A stretch of 64,000 bases of DNA from Alkaliphilus sp. B6464 (GTDB taxonomy: Bacteria; Bacillota; Clostridia; Peptostreptococcales; Natronincolaceae). The stretch spans positions 2,542,001 through 2,606,000 of the forward strand of contig NZ_CP058557.1 of assembly GCF_018141165.1 (NCBI RefSeq), written 5' to 3'. Each line of letters opens with the position of its first letter. The first letter of the stretch is position 1. A model generated the notes under the pieces. The model saw nothing but the letters and a program-made list of their open reading frames with translations. It was not told where the DNA came from and did no database searches. The position numbers and the translations under genes were made by a program. This document shows, piece after piece, positions 8,586-50,740 of the stretch.

Positions 8586-9003
8586 ATGAATATAGAGAAT
8601 ATAAAAAACAAACTAGAATCAAAAGAATATGATTTCTTAAGGAATAATGAACATCTTGGAGATAGGATTATATTACTAACAACGGGAGGTTCATATGCAT
8701 ATGGTACTAACATAGAAACAAGTGATTTAGATATTAGAGGAATTGCAATTGAAGGGGAAAAAGAAGTTTTAGGATTATCCAATTTTGAACAATTTGAGGA
8801 TGTTTCTACTGATACTACAATTTATGGACTTAAAAAAGTAATTGGATTATTATTAAATTGTAACCCCAATACTGTTGAAATGCTAGGTACAAAAGATGAA
8901 CATGTATTTATATTGTCAGAAGAAGGAAGGCTTATAAGGGAGAATATAGATTTATTTTTATCGAAAAGAGCAATACACAGCTTTGGTGGATATGCAACTG
9001 CTC
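8586..9003 (+). pseudogene. 5' exon of a split nucleotidyltransferase (RlaP/YcgL-like, PF10127 type)
   Basis: Residues 1-139 before the intron contain the polymerase-beta-type motif 'LTTGGSYAYGTNIETSDLDI' (GGS...SDxD) and a helical region. This identifies the predicted nucleotidyltransferase family that includes B. subtilis YcgL. The coding sequence runs into the group II intron boundary GTGCGAC at 9004 after the first base of a codon. Joined to 13990 it reads GGYATA|Q|LRRLQNAL, the expected continuation. The downstream exon is itself damaged, so the gene is probably dead even after splicing. Confidence 0.8.
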
Positions 9004-9607
9004 GTGCGACTTGTAAGTAACTACTTCCAATTCGTCAGTCCTTCCAAATAAGGAAGGTATCATAGTTATCATGATATTCCCACTCGAAACTGCTTACCGA
9101 GTAATTGGTATGTTGGGTTGCATGAGAGAAACGCCTAATTGTGTAGTAATTCCAATGAAACATGGGCAAGGGAAAGAATAATATGGTTAACGATAAGTGA
9201 ATATCTATAAGCATCATAAGCGTAGATAGAGGAAATGGAATTGATACCTCTAATGAGAGTTAAGAAAAAGAACATGGGCTGGTTCTTGTGTGATAACCAA
9301 TGTTGAGAAATCAACAAGCTCTCTGGTGTATTGGATAAACCTAACCTATTCGTATCTGACAGTAGTTAAACAAGGTAAGTCCTATAAGGTCATAAGAAAT
9401 TATGTAGGTCAACCGTAAGGAAGATACAATCCCTTAGAGGATAAAGGATTTCTAAAAAAGCTAACGCCAGTATGTCGAAAGACAAAGGGAATGGAAATAA
9501 CCTACTGGATAGTATCATTTGATACAACTCGAAAGAGTGCTGACTTTAGAATGGTTCACACCATTAATAAAACGGAAAGAAGATAATCTATAAAGGAGGA
9601 GTAAGTG

Positions 9608-10487
9608 ATGAATACTTCGGTGAAAAACTTAAATAAAATCAGCAGAAAGTCCACGACTTCTCTAATATCGGATATATCGCAAGTCGAATGGACTAAGATA
9701 GAAAGATATGTGGAGAAGCTTCAACAACGGATATTTAATGCTGAAAGTCAAAGAAATCATAGAAAAGTAAGGGAGCTACAAAGACTTCTTATGAGAAGTA
9801 AATCTGCTCTATTACTATCTATAAAACAGGTAACTCAAATTAATAAAGGCAAAAGAACAGCAGGAGTAGATGGATACAAAGCTTTAACACCAAAAGATAG
9901 AACTAATCTATATAATAAAATGGTAGTTCAAGACATAAATTTACACAATCCAAAACCTGCTAAACGTATCTATATTGAAAAGAAAAATGGTAAATTAAGA
10001 CCATTAGGTATTCCAGTAATTAAAGATAGAGTGTACCAAAACATTATCAAAATGGCATTAGAGCCACAATGGGAATGTAGATTTGAACCAACATCATATG
10101 GGTTCAGACCAAAAAGAAGTACACATGATGCCATTGAAGCAATCTTTAATAAATTAGCACCTAAAAAGAAGCAATGGATATTTGAAGGAGATTTCAAAGG
10201 TTGCTTTGACAACTTAAATCACGATTATATCATTGAACAATTAGGTAACTTCCCTGCAAAAGACTTAGTTATTAAATGGTTAAAAGCAGGTTATATAGAT
10301 AATAAAGTATTCAATACTACGGAACAAGGAACACCTCAAGGTGGTATAATATCTCCCTTACTTGCAAATATAGCTTTACATGGCTTAGAAAAAGCAGTAG
10401 GAGTAAAATACTATGAATATAAAAGAAAAGGTATTAAAGAAATAGAAAACAGAGGTAGTATTAGTGTAGTAAGATATGCAGATGACT
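9608..10487 (+). CDS. ltrA: Outer intron RT/maturase with HNH domain, first part (interrupted)
   Basis: The start is the ATG at 9608 behind TAAAGGAGGAG. This part holds RT blocks 0-5: 'GKRTAGVDGYKALTPKDR', 'KKNGKLRPLGIPVIKDRVYQ', 'YGFRPKRSTHDAI', 'GDFKGCFDNLNHDYI', 'GTPQGGIISPLLANIALHGLE' and the catalytic 'VVRYADD'. Coding stops being meaningful right after GAT GAC T, where the inner intron starts. It resumes at 12994 (TT GTT ATC = FVI). Joined, the protein would have about 592 residues and would mobilise and splice the outer intron. The symbol is the generic name for group II intron proteins. Confidence 0.85.
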
Positions 10488-11034
10488 GTGCGCCACGAAG
10501 GCGTGTCCAAGTAGCGTAGCTACTTGAAGACAGCTATGCTGTGCAGATGATGGCGGTAGGCCCGCCGAAATCGCCATACAGGTGGAGGTTTCAAACTACC
10601 TTAAGGTGCTGTGGTCAAAAGCCATGGTATTGAGCGTTAAGGAAAAGGCAGTATCTAAACTGTCAAGTGCGTATTAAGGAGATGAACGAGCAAGTGAACC
10701 ACTTACGAAAATGTCGAAAGCGTAGAGATTCCATCAAAACCAGGGGGTTGTCGTTAATCTGGGATAAGTCTAGGGGAAACCTGTTTACTGCCTAGATGGT
10801 GGGCGGCATAAAGGTGGCATGAACTTAATACAGGCGTCTGTACGGAACGTGGGAACCCACGGACTGATGTCAAGGGAGTATATCAAGCGGAAGAACCGCA
10901 AGATAAGAGTACCAATGCAGTCATGGGGGCAGATTGGGTTGTAGTAGTGAGGAAGTTTCTGTAATGGGAATGGAGTGAAGAACCCGAGTTATTCAGTTTC
11001 AAGAATAAGTCAACTTTGAAAGGAGGAGGAGCTT

Positions 11035-12279
11035 ATGCAAGAAACAAAGCCATATAATATTTCAAAATGGAAAGTGAAAGAAGCCTACGAAAAGGTGAAA
11101 GCAAACAAGGGAACATACGGAGTCGATGAACAATCAATTGAAGATTTTGAGAAGAATCTAAATAATAATCTATACAAAATCTGGAATAGGATGTCATCAG
11201 GGAGTTACTTCCCCAAACCTGTAAGGGCAGTAGCAATACCTAAGAAAAATGGAGGGACTCGTATCTTAGGAATACCAACAGTAGAAGATAGGGTTGCACA
11301 AATGGTGGCTAAAATGTACTTTGAACCCTGTGTAGAACCAATATTCTATGAGGATTCCTATGGATATAGACCGAATAAATCAGCGATACAAGCATTGGAG
11401 ATCACAAGAGAAAGATGTTGGAGAAAAGATTGGGTGTTAGAATTTGATATTAAAGGTCTTTTCGATAATATACGGCATGATTACCTAATAGAAATGGTAA
11501 GTCGGCATACAGAAGAAGCATGGATAATTATGTATATTAAACGCTGGCTGGTTGTACCATTTCAAATGGAGGATGGAACAGTCATCGAAAGAACTTCTGG
11601 TACACCACAAGGTGGGGTAATCAGTCCAGTACTCTCAAACTTGTTTCTACACTATGTATTTGATGACTTTATGACAAAACAGTTTCCAACAATACCTTGG
11701 GCAAGATACGCAGATGATGGAATAGCACATTGCGTATCTTTAAAGCAGGCGAAGTATCTTCAACGAAGATTAGAAGAGCGATTTCTGATGTTTGGACTTG
11801 GATTGAACTTAGAAAAGACAAGAACCGTGTATTGTAAAGATGAAGACCGAAAGGGGAATCATGAATATACATCTTTTGACTTTTTAGGGTATACATTCAG
11901 ACCAAGACATGCAAAGAATAAGTATGGAAAATTCTTTACAAACTTTCTTCCAGCTATTGGCGAGAAAGCAAAGAAATCTATACGGAAAGAAGTCCGAAGT
12001 TGGAAATTGCAACTGAAACCTGACAAAGATTTATGGGATATAGCAAATATGTTCAATAGTAAGATACAGGGTTGGATTAATTATTACACGCATTTCTACA
12101 AATCAGAGATATACGATGTATTAAGGTATATCAATGGATGTCTTGTTAACTGGGTTCGTAGAAAATATAAGAAGCGAGGGTCAAGGCGACGTGCTGAGTA
12201 TTGGCTTGGTATAATAGCAAGGCGTGATAAGAATCTGTTTGCACACTGGAGGTTTGGAATATTACCATCGGCTGGATAA
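11035..12279 (+). CDS. Inner intron reverse transcriptase/maturase (no endonuclease domain)
   Basis: 414 residues with all RT blocks: 'KGTYGVDEQSIEDF', 'KKNGGTRILGIPTVEDR', 'YGYRPNKSAIQALE', 'EFDIKGLFDNIRHDYL', 'TSGTPQGGVISPVLSNLFL', 'WARYADDGIAH' and 'FDFLGYTFRPR'. The maturase/X domain follows ('INYYTHFYKSEIYDVLRYINGCLVNWVRRKY'). It ends at 'HWRFGILPSAG' with no HNH, so it differs from the outer protein and would have to prime without second-strand cleavage. Its start lies behind AAAGGAGGAGG. It appears intact. The protein is clearly of another lineage than the outer one, so the nesting is not a duplication of the outer intron. Confidence 0.92.
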   Translation: MQETKPYNISKWKVKEAYEKVKANKGTYGVDEQSIEDFEKNLNNNLYKIWNRMSSGSYFPKPVRAVAIPKKNGGTRILGIPTVEDRVAQMVAKMYFEPCVEPIFYEDSYGYRPNKSAIQALEITRERCWRKDWVLEFDIKGLFDNIRHDYLIEMVSRHTEEAWIIMYIKRWLVVPFQMEDGTVIERTSGTPQGGVISPVLSNLFLHYVFDDFMTKQFPTIPWARYADDGIAHCVSLKQAKYLQRRLEERFLMFGLGLNLEKTRTVYCKDEDRKGNHEYTSFDFLGYTFRPRHAKNKYGKFFTNFLPAIGEKAKKSIRKEVRSWKLQLKPDKDLWDIANMFNSKIQGWINYYTHFYKSEIYDVLRYINGCLVNWVRRKYKKRGSRRRAEYWLGIIARRDKNLFAHWRFGILPSAG

Positions 12280-12356
12280 TGGGAGCCGTATGAGCTGAGA
12301 GGTTCACGTACGGTTCTGAGAGGGACTTAAGGGGAGGTTCCTTAGGTCTACTCACT
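11720..12356 (+). repeat. 637-bp tandem duplication, copy 1 (3' part of inner intron)
   Basis: It spans the RT codons just after YADD-G through domain V, domain VI and the 3' end of the intron. Copy 2 follows directly at 12357-12993. Wherever I compared them, including all coding residues from MFGLGLNLEKTR to the stop, the copies are identical. Confidence 0.95.
12283..12316 (+). other. Domain V of the inner group II intron
   Basis: GAGCCGTATGAGCTGAGAGG followed by TTCACGTACGGTTC forms the classic 34-nt catalytic hairpin. A second copy is at 12920-12953. Either could pair with the single upstream 5' domain, giving two possible 3' splice sites. Confidence 0.85.
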
Positions 12357-12993
12357 GAATAGCACATTGCGTATCTTTAAAGCAGGCGAAGTATCTTCAA
12401 CGAAGATTAGAAGAGCGATTTCTGATGTTTGGACTTGGATTGAACTTAGAAAAGACAAGAACCGTGTATTGTAAAGATGAAGACCGAAAGGGGAATCATG
12501 AATATACATCTTTTGACTTTTTAGGGTATACATTCAGACCAAGACATGCAAAGAATAAGTATGGAAAATTCTTTACAAACTTTCTTCCAGCTATTGGCGA
12601 GAAAGCAAAGAAATCTATACGGAAAGAAGTCCGAAGTTGGAAATTGCAACTGAAACCTGACAAAGATTTATGGGATATAGCAAATATGTTCAATAGTAAG
12701 ATACAGGGTTGGATTAATTATTACACGCATTTCTACAAATCAGAGATATACGATGTATTAAGGTATATCAATGGATGTCTTGTTAACTGGGTTCGTAGAA
12801 AATATAAGAAGCGAGGGTCAAGGCGACGTGCTGAGTATTGGCTTGGTATAATAGCAAGGCGTGATAAGAATCTGTTTGCACACTGGAGGTTTGGAATATT
12901 ACCATCGGCTGGATAATGGGAGCCGTATGAGCTGAGAGGTTCACGTACGGTTCTGAGAGGGACTTAAGGGGAGGTTCCTTAGGTCTACTCACT
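12357..12993 (+). repeat. 637-bp tandem duplication, copy 2
   Basis: It begins GAATAGCAC directly after the first ...CTCACT intron end, and finishes with the same ...CTCACT before outer RT coding resumes. It contains a second domain V (12920-12953). The left edge coincides with the YADD-proximal insertion phase in the inner RT gene. This suggests it is the 3' remainder of an intron copy that was itself invaded. Confidence 0.95.
12358..12916 (+). pseudogene. Duplicated C-terminal fragment of the inner RT
   Basis: The frame continues IAHCVSLKQAKYLQRRLEER and the rest of the inner RT to the same stop, with residues identical to the first copy. It has no start codon or upstream RT blocks. The 163-residue frame from 12425 is therefore not an independent gene. 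Confidence 0.9.
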
Positions 12994-13892
12994 TTGTTAT
13001 CATATGTGAAAAAGAAGAAGAAGCTAAGAGTATGTACGATAAATTAACGCCTTACTTAAATAAAAGAGGATTAGAATTAGCCGATGATAAAACAAGGATA
13101 GTTCATATCACAGAAGGTTTCGATTTCTTAGGATTTAATGTTAGAAGTTACAATGACCATAATAAAACAAAATTATTAATTAAACCATCTAAGGAGAGCA
13201 TAAAGAAATTCAAAGCTAAAATATATGATGTGTTTGAACATAATAAGGGTAAAAATGCTAACTATCTAATAAATAAGTTAAATCCACTAATAAGAGGTAC
13301 TGCTAACTACTGGAAATCTACTTGTTCAAGCGAGATTTTCTCTTCAATGGATAACTATATATTTGGAAAGATAGTGAAGTTTTTAAAAAGACTACACCCT
13401 ACAAAAAGTTGGAAATGGAAGTGTGAAAGATACTTTAAACCGGATAAAACTGGTCAAAGTAAAAATAAATGGATATTAACCGACCCAGATAAAGGTATAC
13501 AATTATACCAAATGGGATGGACTTCTATAATAAGACACACTTTAATAAAGATGAATAATTCGCCATATGATGCTAACCTCAAAGAATATTTCCATAAAAG
13601 GAATATTAAAGAGTTTAATAGACAAAATGTTGATATAAAACAGAAAATGGCAAAATTCCAGAACTATAAATGTTATCTATGTGGTAACTCATTAGTTGAC
13701 GATAAGGAAGGAACTGAAATTCATCATAAAAAGCCAATATCTAAGGGTGGAAAGAATACAATAAAGAATATGGTATTAACTCACATATCTTGCCATACTG
13801 AATTTCATAGAACGTATCCAATCAAAGGAGAAATCCCAGATACGAAAGAAATTCTAAAATATAAAAAAGCCTTGAATAATAAAAGAGTATAG
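12994..13892 (+). CDS. ltrA: Outer intron RT/maturase, second part with HNH endonuclease
   Basis: It continues from the YADD motif with 'FVIICEKEEEAKSMYDKL' and 'TEGFDFLGFNVRSYN' (RT block 7), then the maturase region ('LIRGTANYWKSTCSSEIF'). A C-terminal HNH endonuclease follows with 'YKCYLCGNSLVDD', 'EIHHKKPISKGGKNTIKN' and 'HISCHTEFHR', including its Cys-pair zinc site. An ATG at 13032 would give a 286-residue fragment without an RT active site, so this part is meaningful only after removal of all 2506 inner bases. Confidence 0.85.
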
Positions 13893-13914
13893 ACTTTTAG
13901 AAAAAAGTGGGCTT

Positions 13915-13948
13915 GAGCCGTATGTGGTGAAAGTCACAAGTACGGTTC
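13915..13948 (+). other. Domain V of the outer group II intron
   Basis: GAGCCGTATGTGGTGAAAGT continues to CACAAGTACGGTTC, the conserved catalytic hairpin with a GAAA loop, 41 bases before the 3' splice site. Confidence 0.85.
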
Positions 13949-13989
13949 TTAGGGGGGAAGGAAGTAGTAATACTTCTGCCCTACCCGAC

Positions 13990-14434
13990 AATTGAGAAGG
14001 CTCCAAAATGCTTTAGCAAGAGATAATTATCCACAATCTATCCACTACGAGATTTCAAAAATATCTATTCTGAGATGGGGAATGTAATTAAAGACTATAG
14101 TAAGCTTAACCATAGAAATAGAAAGAAAGATGATTTACATTTAAACAAACATGCAATGCATTTAGTAAGATTATTAGCTATGGGAACAGAATTGCTAGAA
14201 GGGAAAGGTATAAATACCTATAGGGAGAATGATCGTGAACTCTTATTAGAAATTAGGGATGGTAAGTATCAGAATGAAGATGGTTCGTTTAAAGAAGAAT
14301 TCTTTGAATTAGTAAATCAATATGAGGTAAAATTGAAGTATGCTGCTGATAATTCACCATTACCATTTAAGCCCAACTTTAATAAAGTCGAGGAATTATT
14401 GATTGAAATCAACAGAAGGAGACTTTTAAAATGA
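13990..14434 (+). pseudogene. 3' exon of the nucleotidyltransferase, with a frame-breaking lesion
   Basis: From the splice junction the frame reads Q-LRRLQNALARDNYPQS and then runs to a stop at 14085-14087. The correct family sequence resumes in a different frame at about 14039: YPLRDFKNIYSEMGNVIKDY, then 'DDLHLNKHAMHLVRLLAMGTELL' to the end. Between them lies TATCCACAATCTATCCACTA, two copies of TATCCAC. This points to a deletion by slippage between short repeats. The frame starting at ATG 14075 is therefore a fragment. Its TGA overlaps the cca start (ATGA), suggesting the two genes were once coupled. Confidence 0.7.
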
Positions 14435-50127: not shown

Positions 50128-50134
50128 GTTCTAT

Positions 50135-50740
50135 GATTAATTTGTAGTGATGCAGTATTCTAGTCAATTAAATTAACCTCGAAGGCGGGGCTAAAAATCC
50201 GTTGAAGGGCATATCGATGAAGTTCCTAGTTTCGGCCGCTGACGCCCAGTTGGGGGTCGGTTCTGGGAGTAAGAGGTGGGGGCGATCCGCAATGGCATGC
50301 GGGCGTTGACCCTTGCCTCGTGGAGACCGACTTCAGTTATGTGAAGAGGGGGAACCTGCAATTTTGTATGAAAGTGCGATTGAGCAGTGTAGCCTGCCTT
50401 GAGTGATATAGGCAGATAAGTAGATCAGTTTCCAGAAGCCAGGGCCCGGTGAAAGGATCCATCGCTACTTGAAACCTATGTTGCAAAAGAGGCTAAGGGT
50501 TAATTTAATTGTTGAGGAAAACTCCTAGACTGTTCATATTGAGGTATATTAAGGATTACAGTGCGGACTAAGTGGCAATCCAGTCTTACTATTGGTGACA
50601 AAGTAGATATCGGTTTAAAGGGAAACCGCTGCAATGGTGACAGGCAGTACTGATTTGGGAAATCCAACTGGACCTAAGCCGTAAAATTTACTTACTATAC
50701 TATCACTGCTTATGGAGCTGGTAGCATATGCTATCAGCTT
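50135..50740 (+). ncRNA. ole: OLE RNA (ornate, large, extremophilic)
   Basis: About 600 bases of GC-richer, strongly structured, non-coding DNA between the isoprenoid genes and dxs. This is the conserved place of OLE RNA in Bacillus halodurans and anaerobic extremophiles. Visible structures include the CTCGAAGGCGGGGCTAAAAA start, the GGTGGGGGCGATCCGC...GCGGGCGTTGACCC region and GGCCCGGTGAAAGGATCC. A final hairpin, AGCTGGTAGC-ATAT-GCTATCAGCT, lies at 50716-50738. The OLE partner gene follows directly. OLE forms a membrane ribonucleoprotein needed for stress tolerance in known hosts. The exact ends are estimated. Confidence 0.88.

Follow-up and report, generated by a model that had tools for sequence, protein, structure and literature searches.

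A group II intron of Alkaliphilus sp. B6464 with a second 3' half, probably the footprint of insertion into its own YADD codons

We analysed a window of 64,000 nucleotides (nt) from Alkaliphilus sp. B6464 (GCF_018141165.1, NZ_CP058557.1, positions 2,542,001–2,606,000 of the forward strand; all coordinates below are those of the window), in which a group II intron, here termed the inner intron, lies within the reverse transcriptase (RT) gene of a second, outer group II intron. The inner intron is represented by one 5' part (A) followed by two identical copies of its 3' part (B and B'). It very probably acquired this A-B-B arrangement when its RNA reverse-spliced at the YADD active-site codons of its own RT gene, the intron 3' end becoming joined to the intron's own 3' half. 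The complete unit A-B (10488–12356, 1869 nt) contains the ribozyme 5' domains, an RT/maturase gene and ribozyme domains 5 and 6 (D5-D6), and the parts of the locus are as follows:

10488–11719, + strand: A, 5' part of the inner intron (1232 nt), from ribozyme domain 1 (D1) onward through the N-terminal part of the RT up to its own YADD codons
11720–12356, + strand: B, 3' part of the inner intron (637 nt), with the rest of the RT, D5-D6 and the first 3' splice site (Rfam RF00029, 60.5 bits)
12357–12993, + strand: B', second identical 3' part, which runs from immediately behind the intron 3' end to the outer exon and carries the second 3' splice site
12281–12356, + strand: first D5-D6 of the inner intron (RF00029, 60.5 bits)
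12918–12993, + strand: second D5-D6, identical to the first (RF00029, 60.5 bits)
11035–12279, + strand: inner RT/maturase, intact, 414 amino acids, own motif YADDG (TIGR04416, 402 bits with a cut-off of 300; Pfam RVT_1 and GIIM only)

The two copies of the 3' part (11720–12356 and 12357–12993) are identical at 637 of 637 nt. As a first-pass annotation of this DNA had described, the repeat begins after the first base of the codon that follows Asp-Asp in the inner RT (GCAGATGATG/GAATAGC, read as GAT GAT G/GA; the slash marks the junction), that is in codon phase 1 after the intron's own YADD. The same phase applies to the insertion of the inner intron in the outer RT (GCAGATGACT/TTGTTATC, read as GAT GAC T/TT), again as had been described, and to all four insertion sites of the intron in this genome. 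The right breakpoint of the tandem is the intron 3' end, with matches to RF00029 ending at 12356 and at 12993, and the second copy starts immediately behind the first of these ends, in agreement with the earlier reading. No microhomology was present at either tandem breakpoint when the junction bases were compared. Our recount also reproduced the agreement, at 15 of 19 positions, between the bases preceding the self site and those preceding the outer site; between 8.5 and 15.5 kb this level of agreement with the outer exon was reached by only 2 of 6981 positions, the outer site itself counted.

The genome assembly (2 contigs, 3.86 Mb) contains the A-B unit four times, and the 100% identity of these dispersed copies implies recent mobility. 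The first-pass annotation had proposed that copies elsewhere carrying the same tandem would speak for ordinary duplication; the three siblings carry no 637-nt tandem, the extra B being confined to the window locus, so the tandem did not predate transposition. GCWGATGAYN precedes all four copies; group II RT genes host three, and the fourth lies in a putative acetyltransferase-like gene (identity read from its sequence) that happens to encode EYADDI. The junction between the two 3' parts (B/B) was found only at the window locus among the 29 genomes carrying the family, with three mismatches allowed, and in none of the viral contigs searched; when B was searched against the whole class, the matches scored per genome were too few for tandems to show up.

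Conserved YADD codons in other reverse transcriptases are the homing target of the inner intron's lineage. Scanning species genomes recovered 49 relatives, and nearly all that are full-length start where the homology of the host RT reaches YADD. Together with the outer site of the window, 35 further sites make up 36 distinct family sites, located in phase 1 behind YADD or a motif resembling it and with recognisable RT homology in the 5' exon at 28. Exon position −1 is T at 26 of these sites, A at 7, C at 2 and G at 1. In the family's own RTs, Gly almost always comes next after YADD, which places G at the family's own position −1; the other group II RTs in the sampled loci mostly have T there. 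The sole insertion with G at −1 is L160 (Petralouisia muris; 5' exon GACGACG), in a contig that stops before EBS1, the first of the two exon-binding sites (EBS) considered below. L022 (1–9242, Pelosinus fermentans) holds a cluster of three related group II introns, one of which interrupts a host RT at YADD; the cluster is probably a nested array. A 134-nt exact tandem in L022 was considered as a parallel and rejected, as it lies in an unrelated insertion with a REP-type transposase-like open reading frame (ORF).

Guide sequences of the inner intron and the intron-binding sites (IBS) that they would recognise were located as follows:

10749–10755, + strand: EBS1, UGUCGUU, in a terminal loop; its first base faces exon position −1 and it covaries with IBS1
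10668–10674, + strand: candidate EBS2, UGCGUAU, 7 of 7 Watson-Crick pairs with the intron's own AUACGCA
10474–10487, + strand: IBS2-IBS1 of the outer site, ATATGCAGATGACT, 13 of 14 pairs, rank 2 in the window
11706–11719, + strand: IBS2-IBS1 of the self site, ATACGCAGATGATG, 14 of 14 pairs, rank 1 in the window, both strands

Pairing between EBS1 and IBS1 holds across the family, with 194 of 203 possible pairs formed over 29 sites compared with a mean of 185 after shuffling (p = 0.0011, 20000 shuffles, uncorrected for relatedness). Covariation is seen at the first base of EBS1, which is U opposite A at −1 in relatives L063, L065 and L044, and G opposite C in L064; the divergent L047 has the EBS1 AUGCGUU, which pairs with GATGCAT at 7 of 7 positions. 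The ranks listed above come from a de novo scan of both strands of the window with EBS1 and the candidate EBS2, the latter picked for its match to these sites and pairing more weakly in some relatives. An alignment of the guides with both sites, which the first-pass annotation had suggested, thus places the self site first, in a ranking that is partly circular. The sequence AGUCAU at 10919–10924 was dropped as an EBS1 candidate; it belongs to a conserved region outside an EBS1-type loop and shows no covariation with the target sequences. The second-best guide match within the intron (13 of 14) is at 10539–10553 in the ribozyme 5' domain, CTGTGCAGATGATGG, and most family members conserve AGATGATGG; the match may be due to chance, or the stretch may form a strand of the ribozyme structure or act within the intron as a decoy for EBS1.

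Self-targeting of the intron at its own YADD codons is therefore strongly supported, by the exact boundaries, the site preference of the whole family, the covariation of EBS1, the position of the self site as the best in the window and the restriction of the tandem to this locus. Several observations weigh against it. The G at −1 of the intron's own site is found at only 1 of the 36 targets used by the family, and self-insertion is rare, with one case in about 40 full-length copies. EBS1 by itself singles out no one site, and the choice of EBS2 drew on the very sites under comparison. Further, the junction expected at the 5' side of a self-insertion (A/A, GATGATG/GTGCGCC) was not found at the locus, in the 29 genomes or in the viral contigs, so that a second step or an atypical route must be assumed; with B/B present and A/A absent, the locus as assembled is not a self-nested twintron of the form A-A-B-B.

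The locus very probably arose as follows, the reverse-splicing step itself being one that we infer. A mobile intron lacking an endonuclease first entered the outer intron's RT at its YADD codons. The same codons are present in the intron's own RT gene and pair with its guides at least as well, and the intron RNA reverse-spliced there, so that the intron's own 3' half came to lie directly behind an intron 3' end. The A-B-B product retains one complete intron (A-B), and the former 3' half (B) is left over, providing D5-D6 and a 3' splice site for a second time. The second A would either have been inserted and subsequently lost by recombination of adjacent identical 1232-nt repeats; or never have been inserted, the nascent cDNA having been resolved on the identical upstream A.

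The first of these two routes, in which full self-insertion to E5-A-A-B-B-E3 is followed by homologous recombination of the adjacent A repeats that deletes one A, is that of the first-pass annotation, and we give it close to an even chance. Bacterial lariat introns usually retrohome by full reverse splicing (PMC3280974); insertions in the nested group II introns of Methanosarcina are offset by deletions through homologous recombination (review, PMC4424553); and adjacent exact repeats of 1232 nt should recombine readily. The route does, however, require two events, and no A-A intermediate or 5' self-junction came to light in the 29 genomes or the viral contigs. What stands of the earlier proposal is the self-targeting, through the boundaries, pairing, family preference and uniqueness described above; a former complete A-A-B-B and the loss of one 1232-bp 5' half from it are not established by a locus in which only the B/B junction is present.

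In a single step, the intron 3' end could have been joined to its own 3' half and the cDNA resolved on the identical upstream A; variants would be an attack on the intron RNA, or an end-to-end template switch on RNA cut at the self site. We consider this a realistic possibility, if at rather worse than even chances. It accommodates B/B as the only self-junction present, and linear group II intron RNAs are known to retrohome by the first step alone, the cDNA end being joined to the upstream exon later (PMC3280974); given an intron RT without an endonuclease, resolution would also have to lean on host replication or repair. That precedent, however, is a different intron in Drosophila with junctions made by end-joining and not driven by homology (PMC3280974), and the resulting sequence would be identical to that of the two-step route, so that nothing here tells the two apart.

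It is improbable that the chromosome carries an intact A-A-B-B whose two A copies were collapsed in assembly. Tandem repeats that exceed the read length do collapse, but this 2-contig assembly placed four dispersed identical copies of 1869 nt in their unique flanks, and thus resolved longer repeats; mate-pair data could nevertheless resolve dispersed copies and still collapse a tandem. Very unlikely, too, are two insertions at the outer site, with a 5'-truncated B arriving first and a full A-B then entering before it and reusing the 5' exon. An insertion does leave the 5' exon (IBS) unbroken, and the family includes 5'-truncated copies (L060, and contig-edge fragments such as L053, L062 and L067), but the few that were seen start at varied points, whereas here the truncation would have to hit the self homing site by chance (about 1 in 1869). 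Tandem duplications are common in bacteria, yet ordinary duplication by slippage or unequal exchange, with no intron activity, is scarcely credible for a repeat that lacks microhomology and whose breakpoints are the intron 3' end and the best-pairing homing site, a coincidence with an estimated chance of about 1e-7 (from a length of 2.5 kb).

Chimeric copies L054 and L055 were examined as a precedent for recombinational loss of intron 5' parts and set aside, since their junctions pass through another inverted-repeat element at PQGG codons. In these two genomes (L054 4500–4700; L055 960–1040) the host RT is readable to PQGG and is followed by a brief segment bearing the inverted repeats TTATGYCGAG / CTCGKCATAA and, after it, by an inner-type RT from GGVISP; apparently another element inserted at PQGG codons and a deletion took place between two of its copies.

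In its present state the locus combines a single 5' intron body with a pair of identical D5-D6 ends, which differ in their predicted outcome. When the outer exon was joined in silico to the first 3' end, GAT GAC TGA resulted and the outer RT is predicted to stop at YADD; only the second 3' end restores its frame.

Why the family as a whole should spare its own gene may relate to position −1. Most members have an A in EBS1 facing −1, which fits the T of most targets; the window intron has U, compared with A in its nearest relative (91%) and in the sister clade, and this U can wobble with the G of the intron's own site (U.G). It is conceivable, although we regard it as doubtful, that the family avoids itself through this one guide base and that the change from A to U cost the window intron its discrimination of self from non-self, self-insertion following and giving a two-ended intron able to start alternative 3' splicing. 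Three of the four actual insertions of this intron have T at −1, so the U is not decisive; and the duplex energy at the self site differs little (−3.6 kcal/mol with U versus −3.3 with A), so that the argument rests on pairing and site counts and not on stability.

By its structure the inner intron is a mobile group II intron, with D1 and D5-D6 in order, an intact RT/maturase and EBS-IBS exon recognition (EBS2 being only plausible). It begins with GTGCGCC at 10488 (a GUGYG-type start) and matches RF01999 at 10552–10668 with 115 bits. A Pfam search of its RT gave no match to an HNH endonuclease, which the outer RT does carry; the inner RT thereby matches the endonuclease-less classes of intron-encoded protein (C, D, E, F and others) as a group. 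The surrounding outer intron comprises:

9004–13989, + strand: outer group II intron, inside an RlaP-like nucleotidyltransferase gene; 5' end GTGCGACTTG (RF00029, 65.9 bits)
9605–10487, + strand: 5' part of the outer RT, through the YADD codons and one base beyond (TIGR04416, RVT_1, RVT_N)
12994–13892, + strand: 3' part of the outer RT, with maturase domain and HNH endonuclease (Pfam GIIM, HNH)
13913–13989, + strand: D5-D6 of the outer intron (RF00029)

Precise excision of 10488–12993 in silico gave a single open frame for the outer RT (593 amino acids, with RYADDFVIIC); the inner intron is thus precisely inserted and its removal restores the outer reading, as in a twintron. The 5' exon of the outer intron has a Pfam match to RlaP, and the flanks of this intron join in frame at GGYATA/QLRRLQNALARD, making a three-level nest of nucleotidyltransferase gene, outer intron and inner intron. 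The joined nucleotidyltransferase gene (8586–9003 + 13990–14434) stays in frame for about 30 codons and then meets a stop; its likely continuation is an ORF from 14075 in a different frame, and judged from the sequence the gene looks frameshifted or mis-sequenced. Elsewhere in the window is a full-length OLE RNA at 50131–50722 (RF01071, 481.8 bits).

Twintrons and the homing of one intron into another are already known, as are losses by recombination within nested arrays and an intron that invaded itself. In the literature searched, where key nested and self-invading cases were available through citing papers, we found no bacterial family aimed at YADD codons and no A-B-B self-footprint. A bacterial retroelement whose target is the active-site codons in the copying enzymes of competing elements has that target in its own gene too, and this makes testable how a site-specific element avoids itself.

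The nested group II introns of Methanosarcina acetivorans, as summarised in later papers (Dai and Zimmerly 2003; via PMC4424553, PMC2882425), are alike in that insertions are balanced by recombinational loss; they differ in being archaeal, with up to five nested introns and no coding flanks, whereas the present case is bacterial, has a YADD target and bears a partial self-copy footprint. The mitochondrial cox1i1149g2 of Phlegmariurus, according to the papers that cite it (Zumkeller et al. 2020; via PMC8393795, PMC10012718), is likewise a hypermobile group II intron that invaded its own sequence, but in a plant mitochondrion and with the internal copy reported as a twintron; here the host is a bacterium, the RT is intact, and a partial A-B-B lies at the RT active-site codons. 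The TeI3/TeI4 twintrons of Thermosynechococcus elongatus (PMC2882425) share identical, recent inner introns at one conserved site in diverged outer introns, although insertion there falls between a pair of start codons in the outer ORF and the inner introns are ORF-less, in contrast to the YADD site and RT-encoding inner intron described here. C.te.I1 of Clostridium tetani (PMC3919590) similarly has a single 5' intron body behind which D5-D6 and the 3' splice site occur more than once; it has four D5-D6 repeats and its alternative splicing was tested, whereas the ends reported here are two, identical and predicted as splice sites. The Alkaliphilus locus suggests that group II introns with multiple D5-D6 ends, C.te.I1 being the one that has been studied, may arise in a simple way, every insertion of an intron into itself adding one 3' end.
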